Positions 600-50,319 of a DNA stretch of 64,000 nt are shown here, in pieces (position 1 is the stretch's first letter; every line of letters starts with the position of its first letter). The translations under genes were made by a program, and so were the position numbers. The stretch comes from Nitrospirota bacterium (GTDB lineage Bacteria > Nitrospirota > Thermodesulfovibrionia > Thermodesulfovibrionales > Dissulfurispiraceae): contig JAMCVZ010000038.1 of the NCBI GenBank assembly GCA_023476565.1, forward strand, positions 1 through 64,000. The letters are read 5' to 3'. Below the pieces are notes generated by a model. It was not told where the DNA came from. It did no database searches and saw nothing but the letters and a program-made list of their open reading frames with translations.

Positions 600-1028
600 A
601 TGAAGAGGAACCTCTATCTCACGGATAAAAAAGGTTTTACCCTTGTCGAGCTGCTCGTTGTCCTCGTGATCCTGGGACTGCTGGCAGCGCTGGTAGGCCC
701 GAAGCTTTTCCCGAAACTCGGCAAAGGCAAGCAGGCTGCGGCAAAGGCCCAGATCGAATTGCTGGAACAGGCCATGGACCAGTACCGGCTCGATGTCGGG
801 ACATATCCAAACACGCAGGACGGGTTGAATGCCCTGGTGGCGAATCCGGGGGGACTTGAGAGATGGGAAGGGCCGTATCTCAAGAAGGGCCTGCCGAATG
901 ATCCGTGGGGCAAGCCGTACCACTACCAGATGCCAGGACAGCACGGCGAGTATGATCTCTTCTCCTACGGCAGGGACGGTTCGCCCGGGGGCGAGGGGGA
1001 GGACAAGGATGTTACGAACTGGGAGTGA
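600..1028 (+). CDS. gspG: Type II secretion major pseudopilin GspG
   Basis: Major pseudopilin, which assembles into the periplasmic pseudopilus that pushes substrates through the secretin. The 142-residue protein has a short basic leader, the prepilin peptidase site KKG|FTLVE after Gly12 with Glu at +5, and a hydrophobic helix (LLVVLVILGLLAALV). Its C-terminal part has the GspG-type pattern TYPNTQDGLNALV, GPYLKKGLPNDPWGKPY and the Asp/Gly-rich calcium-site region DLFSYGRDGSPGGEGED. The ATG at 600 is preferred over a TTG at 585 because GGGGAG at 587-592 is well spaced for it. First gene of an operon running to gspC. Confidence 0.96.
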   Translation: MKRNLYLTDKKGFTLVELLVVLVILGLLAALVGPKLFPKLGKGKQAAAKAQIELLEQAMDQYRLDVGTYPNTQDGLNALVANPGGLERWEGPYLKKGLPNDPWGKPYHYQMPGQHGEYDLFSYGRDGSPGGEGEDKDVTNWE

Positions 1029-1075: not shown

Positions 1076-2605
1076 ATGAGTAAAAAACCGGACTGCTTGA
1101 AAGTGGAGGATCTGCCGAAGGTCCCCTTTGTTGTGGACGGCATATCCTTCCGCTTTATCAGGGAGAACAAAATTATCCCAATAGAACTGAAGAACAATGT
1201 CCTGAGCGTGGTCATGCCGGACTGCGGCGACAACGAGGACGCCATCGATGCGCTCAAAGTGGCGACATCGGCGGAGGTTAAAGTATTCAGCGCCGATGCC
1301 CACATGATCGATGAGTACCTGTCGAAGTTTTACGGCCAGGAGCCGCAGAATATAAACAGGATAATCGAGGAGATAGGCGACAGCGAGGGGCTCGAATTCC
1401 TGCACGAGGATGAAGAGGATATAGGCCATCTCAAAGACCTTGCCTCCGAAGCGCCCATTATCAAGCTCGTGAACATGCTCATTGTGAGGGCTGTCGAGAG
1501 CAGGGCGAGCGATATCCATATAGAGCCCTTTGAGGATGAGCTGAAGGTCAGATACCGTATAGACGGCATACTGCATGATATCGAATCGGTGCCCAAGAAG
1601 CTGCAGGCCGCGATCGTCTCCAGGATCAAGCTTACCGCAAAATTGAATATCGCGGAGCGGAGATTGCCGCAGGACGGTAGAATCAGGCTCAAGGTCGCTG
1701 AAAAGGAGATAGACCTGAGAGTCTCGACCATACCGGTGCTCTACGGCGAGAGCGTGGTCATGAGGATTCTCGACAAGAAGGGCATTGTCATAGACCTCGA
1801 CCGCCTGGGCTTTTCCCACGAGACGCTCTCTCAATTCAAGCAGTTGATAACCAAACCGAACGGCATCATATTCGTCACCGGACCTACCGGAAGCGGCAAG
1901 ACCACAACACTGTACGGCGCGTTAGACAGGATAAACTCGCCCGACAAAAAAATAATCACGGTCGAAGACCCGGTGGAGTACCAGCTCAAAGGGGTCAACC
2001 AGATACAGGTGAAGCCGAAGATAGGCCTCAATTTCGCAAACACGCTGAGGCACATTGTCAGGCAGGACCCCGATGTCATTATGATCGGAGAGATCAGGGA
2101 CCTTGAGACAGCGGAGATAGCCATACAGTCGGCCCTTACCGGGCACCTTGTGTTTTCTACGTTGCATACCAACGACGCCGCCGGCGCGATCACAAGGCTC
2201 CTCGATATGGGAGTCGAGAACTTCCTCCTCTCCTCCACGGTACGGGGAATCCTCGCCCAAAGGCTTGTGCGGGTTATCTGTCCCGGATGCAAAGAGGTGG
2301 ACGCCTCGGTTGCGGACAAAGAGGAACTGCGCCTGCTGGGAATCAGCAACGGCAAACCCTTTTACCGGGGAACGGGATGCGAGGAATGCGCCTTCACCGG
2401 CTACCACGGCAGGCTGGGGATATACGAGCTCATCGCTATCGACGACGATATGCGCAGGCTGATCCTCAAGAGCGCCGATGCGAACGAGATCAGGGAAGTT
2501 GCGCGGAAGAACGGCATGAAGACCCTCCTTGAAGACGGGGCCGGGAAGATAAAGGAGGGCATAACAACCCTCAATGAGTTGCTCAGAGTGACGCAGGAGG
2601 CATAA
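1076..2605 (+). CDS. gspE: Type II secretion ATPase GspE
   Basis: Cytoplasmic hexameric ATPase that powers pseudopilus assembly. The 509-residue protein has an N-terminal domain (about 1-120), then the GspE/PilB core. Walker A GPTGSGKT is at 269-276, the Asp box around EDPVEY is near 297, and the Walker B-type stretch DPDVIMIGEI is at 331-340, followed by a His box (STLHTND). Zinc-site cysteines are seen as C402-x2-C405 and C435-x2-C438, as in GspE rather than in PilT. Length is normal for the family. The gene lies 47 bases after gspG and 6 before gspF. Confidence 0.97.
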   Translation: MSKKPDCLKVEDLPKVPFVVDGISFRFIRENKIIPIELKNNVLSVVMPDCGDNEDAIDALKVATSAEVKVFSADAHMIDEYLSKFYGQEPQNINRIIEEIGDSEGLEFLHEDEEDIGHLKDLASEAPIIKLVNMLIVRAVESRASDIHIEPFEDELKVRYRIDGILHDIESVPKKLQAAIVSRIKLTAKLNIAERRLPQDGRIRLKVAEKEIDLRVSTIPVLYGESVVMRILDKKGIVIDLDRLGFSHETLSQFKQLITKPNGIIFVTGPTGSGKTTTLYGALDRINSPDKKIITVEDPVEYQLKGVNQIQVKPKIGLNFANTLRHIVRQDPDVIMIGEIRDLETAEIAIQSALTGHLVFSTLHTNDAAGAITRLLDMGVENFLLSSTVRGILAQRLVRVICPGCKEVDASVADKEELRLLGISNGKPFYRGTGCEECAFTGYHGRLGIYELIAIDDDMRRLILKSADANEIREVARKNGMKTLLEDGAGKIKEGITTLNELLRVTQEA

Positions 2606-2611
2606 GCATAA

Positions 2612-3805
2612 GTGGCGATATTCTCATACAGGGCGACCTCCATGGACGGCACGATCGTCGATGGATTTATCGAGGCGGCGGACGAGACGGCTGCTGTCGA
2701 CAGGATCAAGGCCTCGGGCGTTATCCCCCTGAAGGTCGGCGCTCAAAAAAAGGGCCGCGCGAAGCGGTTTTCCCTGAGGTCTTCAAAAGGCGATCTGCTG
2801 ACCTTTACCATGGAACTTTCCGCGCTCCTCAGCGCGGGCTTGCCGTTGGACAGGAGCCTGGGCATACTTGCCGATATATCCGAAAACAGGGAAATGAAGC
2901 AGGTGACTCAATCGATATTGCGGGCCATTCGGGAGGGCAGCTCATTCTCCGACGCGCTCCAGAGGCAGCCGAAGATCTTCCCGAAGCTGTACGTGAATAT
3001 GGTCAGGGCCGGGGAGACCGGCGGCGTACTGGATACGGTGCTGGACAAGCTGAATGAATTCCTGGAATCCTCAAAGGAATTGAGGGAGCATATCTTCTCC
3101 GCAATGATATATCCCGTCATACTGATCGTGACCGGCGGCATATCGGTGATCGTCCTCCTCACCTACGTGCTCCCGAAATTCACGGTCATATTCGCCGAGC
3201 TCGGGACGTCCCTGCCGCTTCCGACGAAGATACTGCTTATGGTCAGCGATGCCCTTAAAGCATACTGGTGGATATTCCTGGGGCTTATGGCGGCGGGATG
3301 GGCAACTTTTAAAAACTACGCCAGATCCGAAGCGGGCAGGTACAAGCTGGACGGGATAAAGCTCAAGGTGATGGGTGATGTTATCGCAAAGGTAGAGACA
3401 GCGCGGTTTTGCAGGACTCTGGGCACGCTGCTCAGAAGCGGTGTGCCCCTGATCCAGGCATTGAATAATTCACGGGATGTTATCAGTAACCAGGTCATAG
3501 CCTCGGCTGTCAATAAGGTTTCCAAAGGGGCAAAAGAGGGAAAGGGGATAGCTGCTCCGCTTTCCCAGGCGGGGGTATTCCCGAAACTGGCGCTCTCCAT
3601 GATCAAGGTCGGGGAGGAAACAGGGCAACTGGATACGATGCTGCTGAAAGTTGCCTCCACGTATGAGAAGAGCCTGAGGGCGGCAATAAAGAAGCTTATC
3701 AGCTTCCTGGAGCCGGCCATGATTCTCGGCATGGGACTGGTCATCGGGTTTATCGTGATCTCGATGCTGATGGCCATATTTAGCATAACGGATATACCGT
3801 TTTAA
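2612..3805 (+). CDS. gspF: Type II secretion inner-membrane platform protein GspF
   Basis: Polytopic inner-membrane platform protein that links GspE to pseudopilin assembly. The 397-residue protein starts MAIFSYRA as GspF proteins do. It has two repeated GspF domains: about 68-190, and 270-395 with a TLLRSGVPLIQAL motif. Membrane segments lie near 165-190, 215-235 and 370-395. Start is GTG 2612 with GGAGG at 2596-2600. The closing hydrophobic segment MILGMGLVIGFIVISMLM is typical. Confidence 0.96.
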   Translation: MAIFSYRATSMDGTIVDGFIEAADETAAVDRIKASGVIPLKVGAQKKGRAKRFSLRSSKGDLLTFTMELSALLSAGLPLDRSLGILADISENREMKQVTQSILRAIREGSSFSDALQRQPKIFPKLYVNMVRAGETGGVLDTVLDKLNEFLESSKELREHIFSAMIYPVILIVTGGISVIVLLTYVLPKFTVIFAELGTSLPLPTKILLMVSDALKAYWWIFLGLMAAGWATFKNYARSEAGRYKLDGIKLKVMGDVIAKVETARFCRTLGTLLRSGVPLIQALNNSRDVISNQVIASAVNKVSKGAKEGKGIAAPLSQAGVFPKLALSMIKVGEETGQLDTMLLKVASTYEKSLRAAIKKLISFLEPAMILGMGLVIGFIVISMLMAIFSITDIPF

Positions 3806-3808
3806 AGA

Positions 3809-3934
3809 CCGTAATCCGTGCTCCATAATGAGTAAAAGATGTGAAAGACTGTTCAAAGCTCAAGGAACCATGATTGAGAAGAGCATGGGTTATAGGATTA
3901 AAAATAAACTCTCATCACGGATCACGGATTACGG
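3809..3934. repeat. Imperfect inverted repeat at the gspF/gspH junction
   Basis: Left arm 3809-3832 and right arm 3911-3934 are 24 bases each and complementary at 21 positions. The loop is about 78 bases. The left arm spans the first possible gspH start codon. The right arm is translated as part of the gspH leader, just before the prepilin cleavage site. Confidence 0.85.
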
Positions 3935-4367
3935 GTCGCGGAATCATGGATTTACTCTCCTTGAGCTGACGATCGTGCTGTTCCTGATTACGCTTATACT
4001 GGGGTTGTCCGCCGTCTTTTTTGCAGGCACGCTGCCCACGAACAGGCTCAATGCGGCAGCCAGGGAAATATCCGCGACTATACGGTATGCACGATCACTT
4101 TCGATGATCAGCGGACAGCATCAAACTCTATCGATAGACCTTGGTTCGAAGCGGTACGGCATAGAAGGCCGCGGGCATAAGGACATCCCTTCGGATATAG
4201 ATATAAAGGTGATCGACCCCTTGTACGGCGAGATGCGCAATGGGAGCTATCGTCTTGAGTTCCAGCCGTCGGGCGGAGGGCAGGGAGGGACGATTGTTTT
4301 ATGGAACAAAAAGAGGGAAATAAGAATAGAGCTCGATCCTGTAATCGGAGCGGCGGTGATCAAATAA
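3828..4367 (+). CDS. gspH: Type II secretion minor pseudopilin GspH
   Basis: Minor pseudopilin of the type II system. The prepilin site NHG|FTLLE is followed by the hydrophobic helix LTIVLFLITLILGLSAVFF. The body contains NRLNAAAREISATIRYARS, as in GspH/FimT proteins, where the first helix leads into a small beta domain. The frame opens at ATG 3828, which would give an unusually long 41-residue leader. Later in-frame starts at 3870 and 3885 (GAGAAGAG upstream) would give 27 or 22 residues. All of these leaders read through the right arm of an inverted repeat. Gene order G-E-F-H-I-J-K supports the call. Confidence 0.9.
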   Translation: MSKRCERLFKAQGTMIEKSMGYRIKNKLSSRITDYGSRNHGFTLLELTIVLFLITLILGLSAVFFAGTLPTNRLNAAAREISATIRYARSLSMISGQHQTLSIDLGSKRYGIEGRGHKDIPSDIDIKVIDPLYGEMRNGSYRLEFQPSGGGQGGTIVLWNKKREIRIELDPVIGAAVIK

Positions 4368-4820
4368 ATGCAAAATTCAAAATGCAAAATGCAAAATTGT
4401 GGAAATTCATTATTTTTTCATTTTAAACTTTTCCTTTTGAATTTACGAAGTGCGGGGTTCACCCTCCTTGAGGTGCTTGTGGCCCTTGCGCTGCTCGGCA
4501 TTGCGCTCCTGGTGGTAATCCAGCTCTTCTCCGCCGGTCTGAGAGGGATCTCCTCATCCGGTGATTACGTTGCTGCTGCTGCAAAGGCCGAGACCAGGAT
4601 GAGAGAGGCGCTGGATGACGATGCCCTTGCTGAAAAAACGTCGAGCGAGCAATCTGACGGATACAGGATTGAAACGTCAATAAAGGAAACCCTTAAAGAG
4701 AGGACGGATAATCTGCAGGTAAAGCTCCTTGAAATAGGAGTGACAATCTACTGGAACAGGGGAGCACGGGAGAGGTCGCTGGCGCTGAAGACCATGAAGG
4801 TTGTGAATAAACAAATATAA
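4368..4820 (+). CDS. gspI: Type II secretion minor pseudopilin GspI
   Basis: Minor pseudopilin. A 30-residue leader ends in RSAG|FTLLE and is followed by VLVALALLGIALLVVIQLFSAG, the GspI pattern. The 150-residue length fits. The ATG abuts the gspH stop. The leader is encoded by A/T-rich repeated words (AAAATTC/AAAATGC), part of which are complementary to sequence just before the cleavage site (4373-4382 with 4435-4444). Confidence 0.9.
   Translation: MQNSKCKMQNCGNSLFFHFKLFLLNLRSAGFTLLEVLVALALLGIALLVVIQLFSAGLRGISSSGDYVAAAAKAETRMREALDDDALAEKTSSEQSDGYRIETSIKETLKERTDNLQVKLLEIGVTIYWNRGARERSLALKTMKVVNKQI
4373..4444. repeat. AT-rich repeat and inverted repeat inside the gspI leader
   Basis: Repeated words AAAATTC and AAAATGC lie at about 4371-4397. 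The 10-base arms AAATTCAAAA (4373-4382) and TTTTGAATTT (4435-4444) are perfectly complementary. The whole element is translated as the prepilin leader. Confidence 0.7.
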
Positions 4821-4909
4821 GTAACGAGTAACAACAAAGGACAGTTTAAAGGCAGAATGGAAGAAATAATAAATCATAAAACAGCAAATAAGAACTCGTT
4901 GCTCGTTAC
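4821..4909. repeat. Imperfect inverted repeat at the gspI/gspJ junction
   Basis: GTAACGAG at 4821-4828 pairs exactly with CTCGTTAC at 4902-4909. Pairing extends to 14 bases with two mismatches. The right arm encodes part of the gspJ leader. Confidence 0.7.
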
Positions 4910-5552
4910 CCGTCACCCGTTGCTTAATAGGGGCGGTTACACGCTCCTTGAGCTGCTGCTGTCCATCTTCCTGATAGGGCTTATTCTCCTGATCGTAGGC
5001 GGCGCCATGAGACTCGGATTCCGTTCCGTGGATTCGGGAGAAAGGAGGATAGAATCTCTTGAAAGATTCAAGTCATCCCTGAACATTATCAATTCCCAGA
5101 TACAATCCGCAATCCTCATTACTCTTAAAGAAGATAAAGAGGGTGATCTCGATACCGGAGAGAAAAGGTATCTTTTCAAGGGAGACCGGGAATCGATGCA
5201 GTTTCCGACCAACTATTCACTGTGGGGCAACCGGAGGGGATACGTTATAGTCACCTATCAGGTCGAATCCGGCGGTCAGGGGAAATGGATGCTCCGCGCA
5301 ACCGAAGGCCTCATCGGCGCGGAAAAAGGCAAGGAGACGAAGCTTTTTGATCTGCTCGACGGGATACATTTCGAATACTTCTTCAAGGACCCCCTGGAAG
5401 AGAAAGGCAGATGGGTCGAGCAGTGGACGGACAAAGCCTCCATACCGGAAAAGGTGAAGGTGCATCTTGCTGAAGGGACGAGGAAGCTATCTCTTATTAT
5501 CCCGGTGAGGGCACGGGGCTCGCTCTTAACAACCGTAACGCGTAATGAGTGA
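4857..5552 (+). CDS. gspJ: Type II secretion minor pseudopilin GspJ
   Basis: Minor pseudopilin of 231 residues, the normal size for GspJ. A 27-residue leader ends RGG|YTLLE, then LLLSIFLIGLILLIVGGAM. The body includes RRIESLERFKSSLNIINSQ and a beta-rich region with LFDLLDGIHFEYF, as in GspJ. ATG 4857 follows AAAGG at 4848-4852. The leader residues around LLVTRHPLL are encoded by the right arm of the junction inverted repeat. Confidence 0.9.
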   Translation: MEEIINHKTANKNSLLVTRHPLLNRGGYTLLELLLSIFLIGLILLIVGGAMRLGFRSVDSGERRIESLERFKSSLNIINSQIQSAILITLKEDKEGDLDTGEKRYLFKGDRESMQFPTNYSLWGNRRGYVIVTYQVESGGQGKWMLRATEGLIGAEKGKETKLFDLLDGIHFEYFFKDPLEEKGRWVEQWTDKASIPEKVKVHLAEGTRKLSLIIPVRARGSLLTTVTRNE

Positions 5553-5651
5553 TGCGTGATGCGTAAAAGACAAAAGACAAGACCGAAAGACACAAGAAGT
5601 TCTTGTGTTTCGTGCCGTTACCCATTACGCATTACGCATCACTCATCACGC
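5540..5651. repeat. Long imperfect inverted repeat at the gspJ/gspK junction
   Basis: Arms 5540-5566 and 5625-5651 are 27 bases each and complementary at 25 positions. Inside the loop a second small palindrome, CACAAGAA-G-TTCTTGTG, spans 5591-5607. The left arm covers the gspJ stop and the gspK start. The right arm is translated as the end of the gspK leader. Confidence 0.9.
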
Positions 5652-6587
5652 AAAGAGGGCATCGCCCTTCTGATAGTGATATGGGTCGTGACCGTTCTTA
5701 TGGTTACGGTCCTTTCATTCTCCCTCATGGCAAGGACCGAGGCCCATTCCACGCTGTCGTTCAAAGAGGGGATCGAGAAGAATTTTCTGGCCGAGGCCGG
5801 GATAGAAAGGGCGATAATGGAACTCTTTTATATGAGACAGAACATGAATGCCGCGGTAACCACCAAAGATACCGAAGCGTGGAAAGCGGACGGCACGTCC
5901 TACAGCGGACAGGTAGGCGATGGGTCATATACGGTACGTATCAGGGGCGAATCCGGGAAATTGGACATAAACACCGTCCCCGAAATCCTCTTGAAGAACC
6001 TGCTGCTGAATTCCGGAGTAAAAGACGACGATGCGGACACTATTGTGGATTCCATAATGGACTGGAAGGACCCCGATGACCTGCACAGGCTCCACGGCGC
6101 TGAAAGTGATTACTATATGTCGCTGCCGAATCCCTACAAGGCAAAAAACGCGGATTTCGACACCCTCGAAGAGCTTCTGCTCGTCAAGGGCGTAACTCCC
6201 GAGCTGCTCTACGGGAGCACCGAGGCAAAGGGCCTCATCGATTTTCTCACGGTTAATTCAAAAAGCGGCACGGTAAACCTGAACTATGCGCCGAAAGAGG
6301 TCCTGACGGCTATTCCGGGCATCGGCGCCGATACAGCAGACAGGATCATACAATACAGGCAGGACAAGAGCATAAGCGGTCTTCAGGAGATTCAGCAACT
6401 GCTGGGGGAAAATTACAGTGCAGCGGCCCCCTATATAGGCGTTATTGATACGAACGCCTATACTATCGAAGCGAGAGGGTACAGGGGCGGAGAGAAAACG
6501 GGATATCCCGTCAGGGCAATAGTCGCACTGGATAACAATACCAAATACCGGTATCTCTACTACAGGAGTCCGGCATACGTGAGATGA
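5559..6587 (+). CDS. gspK: Type II secretion minor pseudopilin GspK
   Basis: Large minor pseudopilin thought to sit at the tip of the pseudopilus. After a long leader comes KEG|IALLIVIWVVTVLMVTVLSF, with no Glu at +5, which is the GspK hallmark. The large periplasmic part contains ESGKLDINTV, a calcium-site-like DSIMDWKDPDD, and a helix-hairpin-helix-like VLTAIPGIGADTADRIIQYR. ATG 5559 and GTG 5556 are both possible and there is no clear ribosome binding site. It overlaps gspL by 4 bases. Confidence 0.9.
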   Translation: MRKRQKTRPKDTRSSCVSCRYPLRITHHSSRKEGIALLIVIWVVTVLMVTVLSFSLMARTEAHSTLSFKEGIEKNFLAEAGIERAIMELFYMRQNMNAAVTTKDTEAWKADGTSYSGQVGDGSYTVRIRGESGKLDINTVPEILLKNLLLNSGVKDDDADTIVDSIMDWKDPDDLHRLHGAESDYYMSLPNPYKAKNADFDTLEELLLVKGVTPELLYGSTEAKGLIDFLTVNSKSGTVNLNYAPKEVLTAIPGIGADTADRIIQYRQDKSISGLQEIQQLLGENYSAAAPYIGVIDTNAYTIEARGYRGGEKTGYPVRAIVALDNNTKYRYLYYRSPAYVR

Positions 6588-49414: not shown

Positions 49415-50319
49415 TTTCTCTCCTCGCTCCTATCGTTTTCAGGGTTTAGCCGCAATCCCGGCGCTCTGCCCTGTTTGATTTTCCTCTTGAGTAAGGGGAC
49501 AGTCCCTATTCTACGACTTCGCTTCGCTTCGTCCGTAAATAGGGACAGTCCCCAGCGTACGTAGAATAGGGACTGTCCCCAGCGCACCTATGCGTAAGTC
49601 GTGTTAATGAATAAAGCTTCGCCCTCTCAGTTACATGAGATGTGATTGAATAAAACCTCCCACACCTTCGGACTGATTGCCGGGGTTTGTTGAGTATGGA
49701 CTTGAATGCCGGTTTGTGTTATTCCTGATGACTTCCTATCTGACCGGGAACATACCGCAATTTATAAAAGCAATGATTATGCCAGGGGCGAAGTTCTTTT
49801 CCAACGGGAACTATCCCCCCTTAACGCGGGACACTAAAAGGCGCTGTATCAGTCTTTCAGGATAAATTGCAATATTATCAAGCAGCGCGTGACAGGCAAG
49901 GGTGGGTCTGTTGTGAGCATGCCGGCTTTTTTTCACGGCCCGGATGCGCTGAGGTGTGTACCCTTTGGAAACACTTTTGCCGGATCGCCGATAGAAATCA
50001 CAAGGCTTGTAACTGTACGGGTGAAGTGAAAGGGAGAAAATGTGTATTTTGGATACACTTAAAAAGGGAAAGTGTGTCCCCTGGCTACAAACAGCCCCCC
50101 GCAGGGGACGTAAAGACCCCCGCCGACAACCTGAAATCCTTCTGTGCGATCGTTTTTCATTAATAATAGAGCTTTTTAAGAACGCGCGGGTGCGGCCCGC
50201 ATAAAGCCTGCTTCCGGGTACGGGATTTGCTTTTAGTCCGTGGGTCTTTATGAAGGCAGTCAATGGATTTCCCGGGAGTTGCGGGAGAAGGCGGGGACTA
50301 ATGTATATAAGGAGGCGCT
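49415..50319. other. 905-base gap between the EPS array and the beta-barrel gene
   Basis: No gene is supported. A minus-strand open frame (49811-50263) has no family likeness. The gap holds a dispersed repeat (49495-49580), a shorter hairpin GTCCCCTG/CAGGGGAC (50076-50083 with 50102-50109), and a strong ribosome binding site for the barrel gene at its end (AAGGAGG, 50308-50314). The promoters of both divergent units must lie here, but convincing hexamers were not found. Confidence 0.6.
49495..49580 (-). repeat. Dispersed GGGACTGTCCC element, copy B plus a partial copy
   Basis: 49495-49553 (59 bases) is the reverse orientation of the element: ends GGGGACAGTCCCT and AGGGACAGTCCCC, with CTACGACTTCGCTTCGCTTC between. 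Immediately after, 49560-49580 repeats the right end in the other orientation (CGTAGAATAGGGACTGTCCCC, written 5' to 3' as two pieces CGTAGAATA and GGGACTGTCCCC). The GTCCCCAGCG ends are duplicated. Confidence 0.85.

Follow-up and report, generated by a model that had tools for sequence, protein, structure and literature searches.

The window analysed here, a 64,000-nt stretch of DNA, is contig C67 of the 2.67-Mb draft genome of a member of the Nitrospirota (hereafter G000), and opens with a type II secretion operon in the order gspG-E-F-H-I-J-K (Table 1). Gene models are simple open reading frame calls, and all genomes compared below are draft assemblies. Four junctions of the operon, F/H, H/I, I/J and J/K, carry the inverted repeats that we call elements H, I, J and K, with arms of 24, 25, 12 and 27 nt respectively.

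Table 1. Genes of the type II secretion operon and the repeat elements at its junctions, in window coordinates.
Feature	Coordinates	Strand	Context or remark	Arms (identity; heptamers)	Scores
gspG	600..1028	+	major pseudopilin; no element		
gspE	1076..2605	+			
gspF	2612..3805	+			
Element H, family A	3804..3941	+	gspF stop to gspH cleavage site	3809-3832/3911-3934 (88% match; right arm ATCACGG heptamers)	nhmmer E 1.1e-6; covariance model E 4e-6; RNA z -3.6
gspH	3870..4367	+	start possibly 3870 or 3828; AAGGA before ATG 3870 (read from sequence)		
Element I, family B, AT-rich	4367..4444	+	over gspH stop and gspI leader	4373-4397/4420-4444 (80% match; AAATGCA)	E 1.3e-12; RNA z -0.07
gspI	4368..4820	+	N_methyl; named by position		
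Element J, family A, degenerate	4819..4924	+	gspI stop to gspJ cleavage site	4821-4832/4898-4909 (92% match; TTGCTCG TTACCCG TCACCCG)	nhmmer E 4e-6; RNA z -0.4
gspJ	4857..5552	+	N_methyl just under cut-off; named by position		
Element K, family A	5528..5652	+	over gspJ stop and gspK leader	5540-5566/5625-5651 (93% match)	nhmmer E 1.4e-12; covariance model E 1e-10; RNA z -9.4
gspK	5556..6587	+	T2SSK		

These repeats had been described in an initial annotation of the window, and they are real. As that annotation described, the left arms lie at the upstream stop or the start region and the right arms encode the residues directly before the prepilin cleavage site (confirmed for H, J and K); gspG, gspE and gspF have no such repeats. 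The arms are built of degenerate tandem heptamers, such as ATCACGG ATCACGG ATTACGG or AAATTCA AAATGCA AAATGCA. Tandem Repeats Finder located 7-nt periods at three of the junctions (F/H, H/I, J/K) and hardly anywhere else in the window, and at I/J the right arm gives 16/21 matches at lag 7. A search of the window against Rfam returned no match above the gathering score, and a promoter and terminator scan found no excess at the junctions.

Dispersed palindromic families and their copies inside genes

Since the heptamer words differ between junctions, the repeats had been judged not to be copies of one element. This judgement fails for elements H, J and K because all three match a single family, A, a palindrome of approximately 93 nt with an A-rich loop. 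The H/I repeat belongs to a second family, B, an AT-rich palindrome of approximately 72 nt. The scores of element J diverge, with a profile E of 1.5e-8 on a short target and a weak covariance model match in the window (E 0.1). Family A was collected by an iterative profile seeded with a copy inside recN. Neither family is private to pseudopilins, as loci of both are dispersed over the genome: profile searches of 1.57 Mb of the 2.67 Mb located 109 loci of family A and 32 of family B, and a covariance model of family A recovered at least 92 unique loci in the whole genome. Element K, for example, has an inverted paralogue at C5:32966-33093 with 85.2% identity over 115 nt and the same loop. The elements have typical ends (AAAGGCAGTAAC...GTTACTGCCTTT) and contain many heptamer words arranged as inverted pairs. 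Copies of family B sit mostly between genes. The 7-nt period exceeds chance, an 823-kb sample of the genome having 77 arrays at lag 7 versus 1-16 at lags 5, 6, 8-11 and 13. RNAalifold assigned the family A alignment a consensus energy of nearly nil (-0.35 kcal/mol), and the stem was therefore tested by explicit pair counting, in which 77% of cells pair versus 28-48% when the arms are slid. Once column composition is accounted for, a modest covariation is left (score 0.165 versus 0.144 when shuffled, 2/500).

Many family A copies lie within genes. By reading of the sequence, the consensus has a single open frame out of six, and each of the 19 in-gene copies of the 823-kb sample uses it, as judged from their peptides; in-gene copies keep one frame because family A reads in no other. 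The inserts add approximately 15-30 residues, with peptides like DSNKLQVTSNELKDKKESENSSLVTRHSSL, and copies inside LeuS or RecN encode peptides such as SNELQVTSNELK. Hosts confirmed by Pfam include alanine racemase, chorismate synthase, RecN/SMC, HypF, TsaD, YchF, FlgH and a BadF-type activase, among others; BioD and TrpE are among the further hosts, gene names outside the Pfam set being taken from reading the sequences. Compared with solved structures, BioD has a clean insert of 28 aa and alanine racemase one of about 23 aa, and several insertion sites are variable-length regions in alignments.

Some of these insertions are absent in relatives. Homologues lack the inserts of RecN and BioD, and the RecN insert is common to the congener G208 and absent from five other genomes of the family. 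The clearest sign of recent copying is a nuclease-like gene with two near-identical copies (97.5% over 80 nt), the second of which is absent from G208, in what is a small comparison of congeners. An apparent indel in L164/L299 was a lysine-rich coding repeat and no element. A second type of in-frame palindromic insert, with peptides such as NPPLPPFVKGGRGGI / PSPPFSKGGQGGI, adjoins heptamer elements in L206 and L153 (RecN of G208). Furthermore, a long heptamer array of genome G210 (L174:18035-18268; words TTGACTG/CCGACTG) encodes a repeat of approximately 75 residues in a BadF-type protein, where it occupies the loop in which the BadF-type protein of G000 carries a family A element.

Distribution across the Nitrospirota

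Of 296 Nitrospirota genomes, 41 contain matches to the family A consensus, representing 31 of 136 genera, and full-length copies with 77-85% identity are present in other orders and classes of the phylum. The best matches within the phylum are mostly in frame in conserved genes, among them, by reading of the sequences, leuS, valS, ileS, dxs, queC, hemC and trpE. Class I aminoacyl-tRNA synthetases are repeated hosts, with a LeuS site in L217-L229 and a ValS site in L196/L197. One LeuS site holds hairpins with different heptamer words in different genomes. Because the loop at this site is about as long in four genomes that show little or no heptamer pattern there, it may have been overwritten or have decayed rather than been freshly filled.

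Abundance varies among genomes. Another member of the class, G158, has 25 arrays of many words in 80 kb, and G130 and G212 have no heptamer arrays in about 80 kb each. A search for heptamer patterns coupled to prepilins gave four matches only among the named genomes; the Desulfococcaceae and Chloroflexi matches contain heptamer arrays, yet no prepilin by the motif used. On a Desulfococcaceae contig, outside the Nitrospirota, two heptamer arrays of about 85 nt face each other as a hairpin (L183:4853-5049). In another Nitrospirae MAG, FK_Sedi_A_Bin.59 (L185:4293-5352), heptamer arrays with different, GC-richer words occupy the leaders of H, I and J.

Probable mobile DNA, the pseudopilin hot spot and competing explanations

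We propose, with a probability of roughly 80%, that the four repeats are copies of two dispersed palindromic families with degenerate tandem-heptamer arms, and that these represent mobile DNA tolerated where it does least harm. They look like mobile DNA tolerated by translation because they are dispersed through the genome and lie in frame inside housekeeping genes. Such elements would be non-autonomous, probably selfish DNA that moves inside Nitrospirota genomes and from one to another, perhaps by a copying route based on single strands or hairpins; the analysis turned up neither a transposase for them nor a terminal signature or target-site duplication. Copies would then persist at the least harmful sites, namely junctions within operons, prepilin leaders that are cleaved off, signal peptides, and the variable loops and linkers of housekeeping proteins. 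The preserved frame suggests that family A copies within genes are translated as an inserted peptide. At the pseudopilin junctions, the element takes up the interval from the upstream stop to the cleavage site, and the peptide that it encodes would be cut off by prepilin peptidase.

The minor-pseudopilin junctions are a clear hot spot. Among the scored H/I/J/K junctions of G000, 7/7 have an element versus 27/534 other tandem junctions (p 2e-9), although 7/8 is the fair count because the gspK junction of the second operon (operon B) has none. The other prepilin genes, gspG included, have no element in any of nine cases, versus the 7/8 minor-pseudopilin junctions (p 4e-4). In G000 and G208 alike, the two pseudopilin operons have H, I and J leaders with heptamer repeats. 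The earlier suggestion that the cleaved leader can accommodate such sequence is supported, and insertion there should be cheap because leaders are removed. Nevertheless, leader tolerance alone fails to explain the hot spot, because the nine other prepilin genes are without elements. Since these genes leave the hot spot unexplained, we entertain co-option as a possible, if doubtful, alternative: the elements may be a class of 7-nt-periodic palindromes, found across the Nitrospirota and perhaps other phyla, in which the word can change while period, pairing and frame are kept, and whose copies at the minor-pseudopilin junctions have been co-opted to adjust the expression of these genes relative to that of the major pseudopilin.

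The initial annotation had gone further and read the repeats as RNA hairpins, present at every minor-pseudopilin junction, that could govern translation levels or shield mRNA ends. We consider this unlikely. It would account for the strong enrichment in two operons of G000 and for the absence of elements from other prepilin genes, and the J/K and F/H repeats do fold far better than shuffles, but those at H/I and I/J fold no better than shuffles (Table 1). In G208, G130 and other genomes, these junctions likewise bear hairpins that differ in sequence, and a repeat's own arms match better than swapped ones (12.4 versus 8.3, 0/2000 permutations). The expectation that such hairpins are kept at orthologous junctions holds in some related genomes and breaks down in most relatives of the same order, which have no repeats at the equivalent operon. 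The gspK of the second operon is likewise without an element. A pilin-specific RNA device is unsupported, given that the same elements occur within many unrelated genes, where those of RecN, alanine racemase and BioD, among many others, lie in frame.

Movement of the palindromes by the genome's own Y1 (RAYT-like) transposases, after the manner of REP elements, is improbable. The genome does encode nine Y1_Tnp genes, and its repeats, like REP/RAYT systems, are dispersed palindromes, some of them within genes. However, none of the nine Y1_Tnp loci has a copy at the gene (flanks up to about 1.5 kb), the lone copy in the vicinity of one lies about 1 kb from a broken Y1 transposase gene, and close RAYT linkage is thus missing. 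REP elements, which bear a GTAG or CGTC tag, are also only 20-40 bp long (PMC3733652), whereas the Nitrospirota elements are longer and made of heptamers.

Phase variation, in which slippage of 7-mers would shift the frame and toggle each pseudopilin, is very improbable. In its favour, seven is no multiple of three, the arrays overlap 5′ ends, and heptamers are described as the commonest long bacterial repeat among units of 5-11 nt (Mrazek 2007, as summarised in PMC4679880); against it, the arrays are short, imperfect and paired as inversions, their loops are common to several loci, and they lie in frame within housekeeping genes. It is just as far-fetched that in-gene copies are left untranslated, by byp-like ribosomal bypassing or by splicing, even though conserved genes contain hairpin inserts and bypassed palindromes are mentioned for yeast mitochondrial genes (cited in PMC6649704), as the 19 in-gene copies all hold the sole open frame, for which bypassing has no requirement.

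Comparison with known repeat elements

The closest likeness to our proposal of tolerated mobile DNA is found in the Rickettsia palindromic elements (RPEs; Ogata et al. 2000). These are described as dispersed palindromes of about 70-190 bp, in several families, lying in frame in unrelated housekeeping genes (PMC10969869, PMC3767692), and orthologues are reported to hold different RPE groups at one site (PMC3767692). RPE-like elements are also reported from Wolbachia and Methanocaldococcus jannaschii (PMC2996958). The Nitrospirota elements work like RPEs, in that they are many dispersed palindromes (A 93 nt and B 72 nt, slightly under the usual length of about 100-150 bp), are inserted in frame into unrelated conserved genes with a conserved peptide (family A), and have different words occupying one site. 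The likeness is one of behaviour, and common descent is not claimed. Unlike RPEs, they have a Nitrospirota host, arms of tandem heptamers and a strong preference for minor-pseudopilin leaders.

Other systems share single features. The TAACTGA heptamer repeats of Beggiatoaceae, cyanobacteria and Bacteroidetes (MacGregor 2015, PMC4679880) are likewise abundant 7-nt units, mostly intergenic and often immediately upstream of starts, but they consist of one fixed word that is almost always direct, whereas the Nitrospirota elements use many words, are palindromic and are often in frame in genes. Heptanucleotide elements of Geobacter metallireducens, described as having four heptamer repeats, are similarly dispersed between and within genes, though the heptamer words given for them differ (PMC2700814). 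PARCEL repeats (PMC2996958) are also palindromic coding repeats with horizontal spread; however, they form amphipathic protein domains in tandem, and many of these belong to membrane proteins, while the Nitrospirota elements are single inserts in housekeeping proteins.

We found no report of such elements for Nitrospirota in the literature searched, the scope of which stopped short of most subscription journals. In-frame selfish palindromes were represented in the literature found by Rickettsia, Wolbachia and one archaeon, and similar ones are now seen across a different bacterial phylum, where they have a 7-base architecture and a clear hot spot. The system opens questions of how the elements are copied, what sets the period at 7, how LeuS, RecN and similar hosts accommodate them, and whether they supply proteins with new sequence. 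It also calls for caution, as dispersed copies should be sought before hairpins in gene leaders are called regulators.

Two further repeats were noted. Between a heptamer array and the GGNTTYAC codons of the cleavage site (leader SRREGFTL) there is often a small palindrome, TTCCCGAAGGGAA / TCCCGCAGGGA, as in L003, L011, L039, L066 and L112. Another dispersed repeat, containing GGGACTGTCCC / GTAAATAGGGACAGTCCCC, is present in the window at 49517-49584 and upstream of L010.
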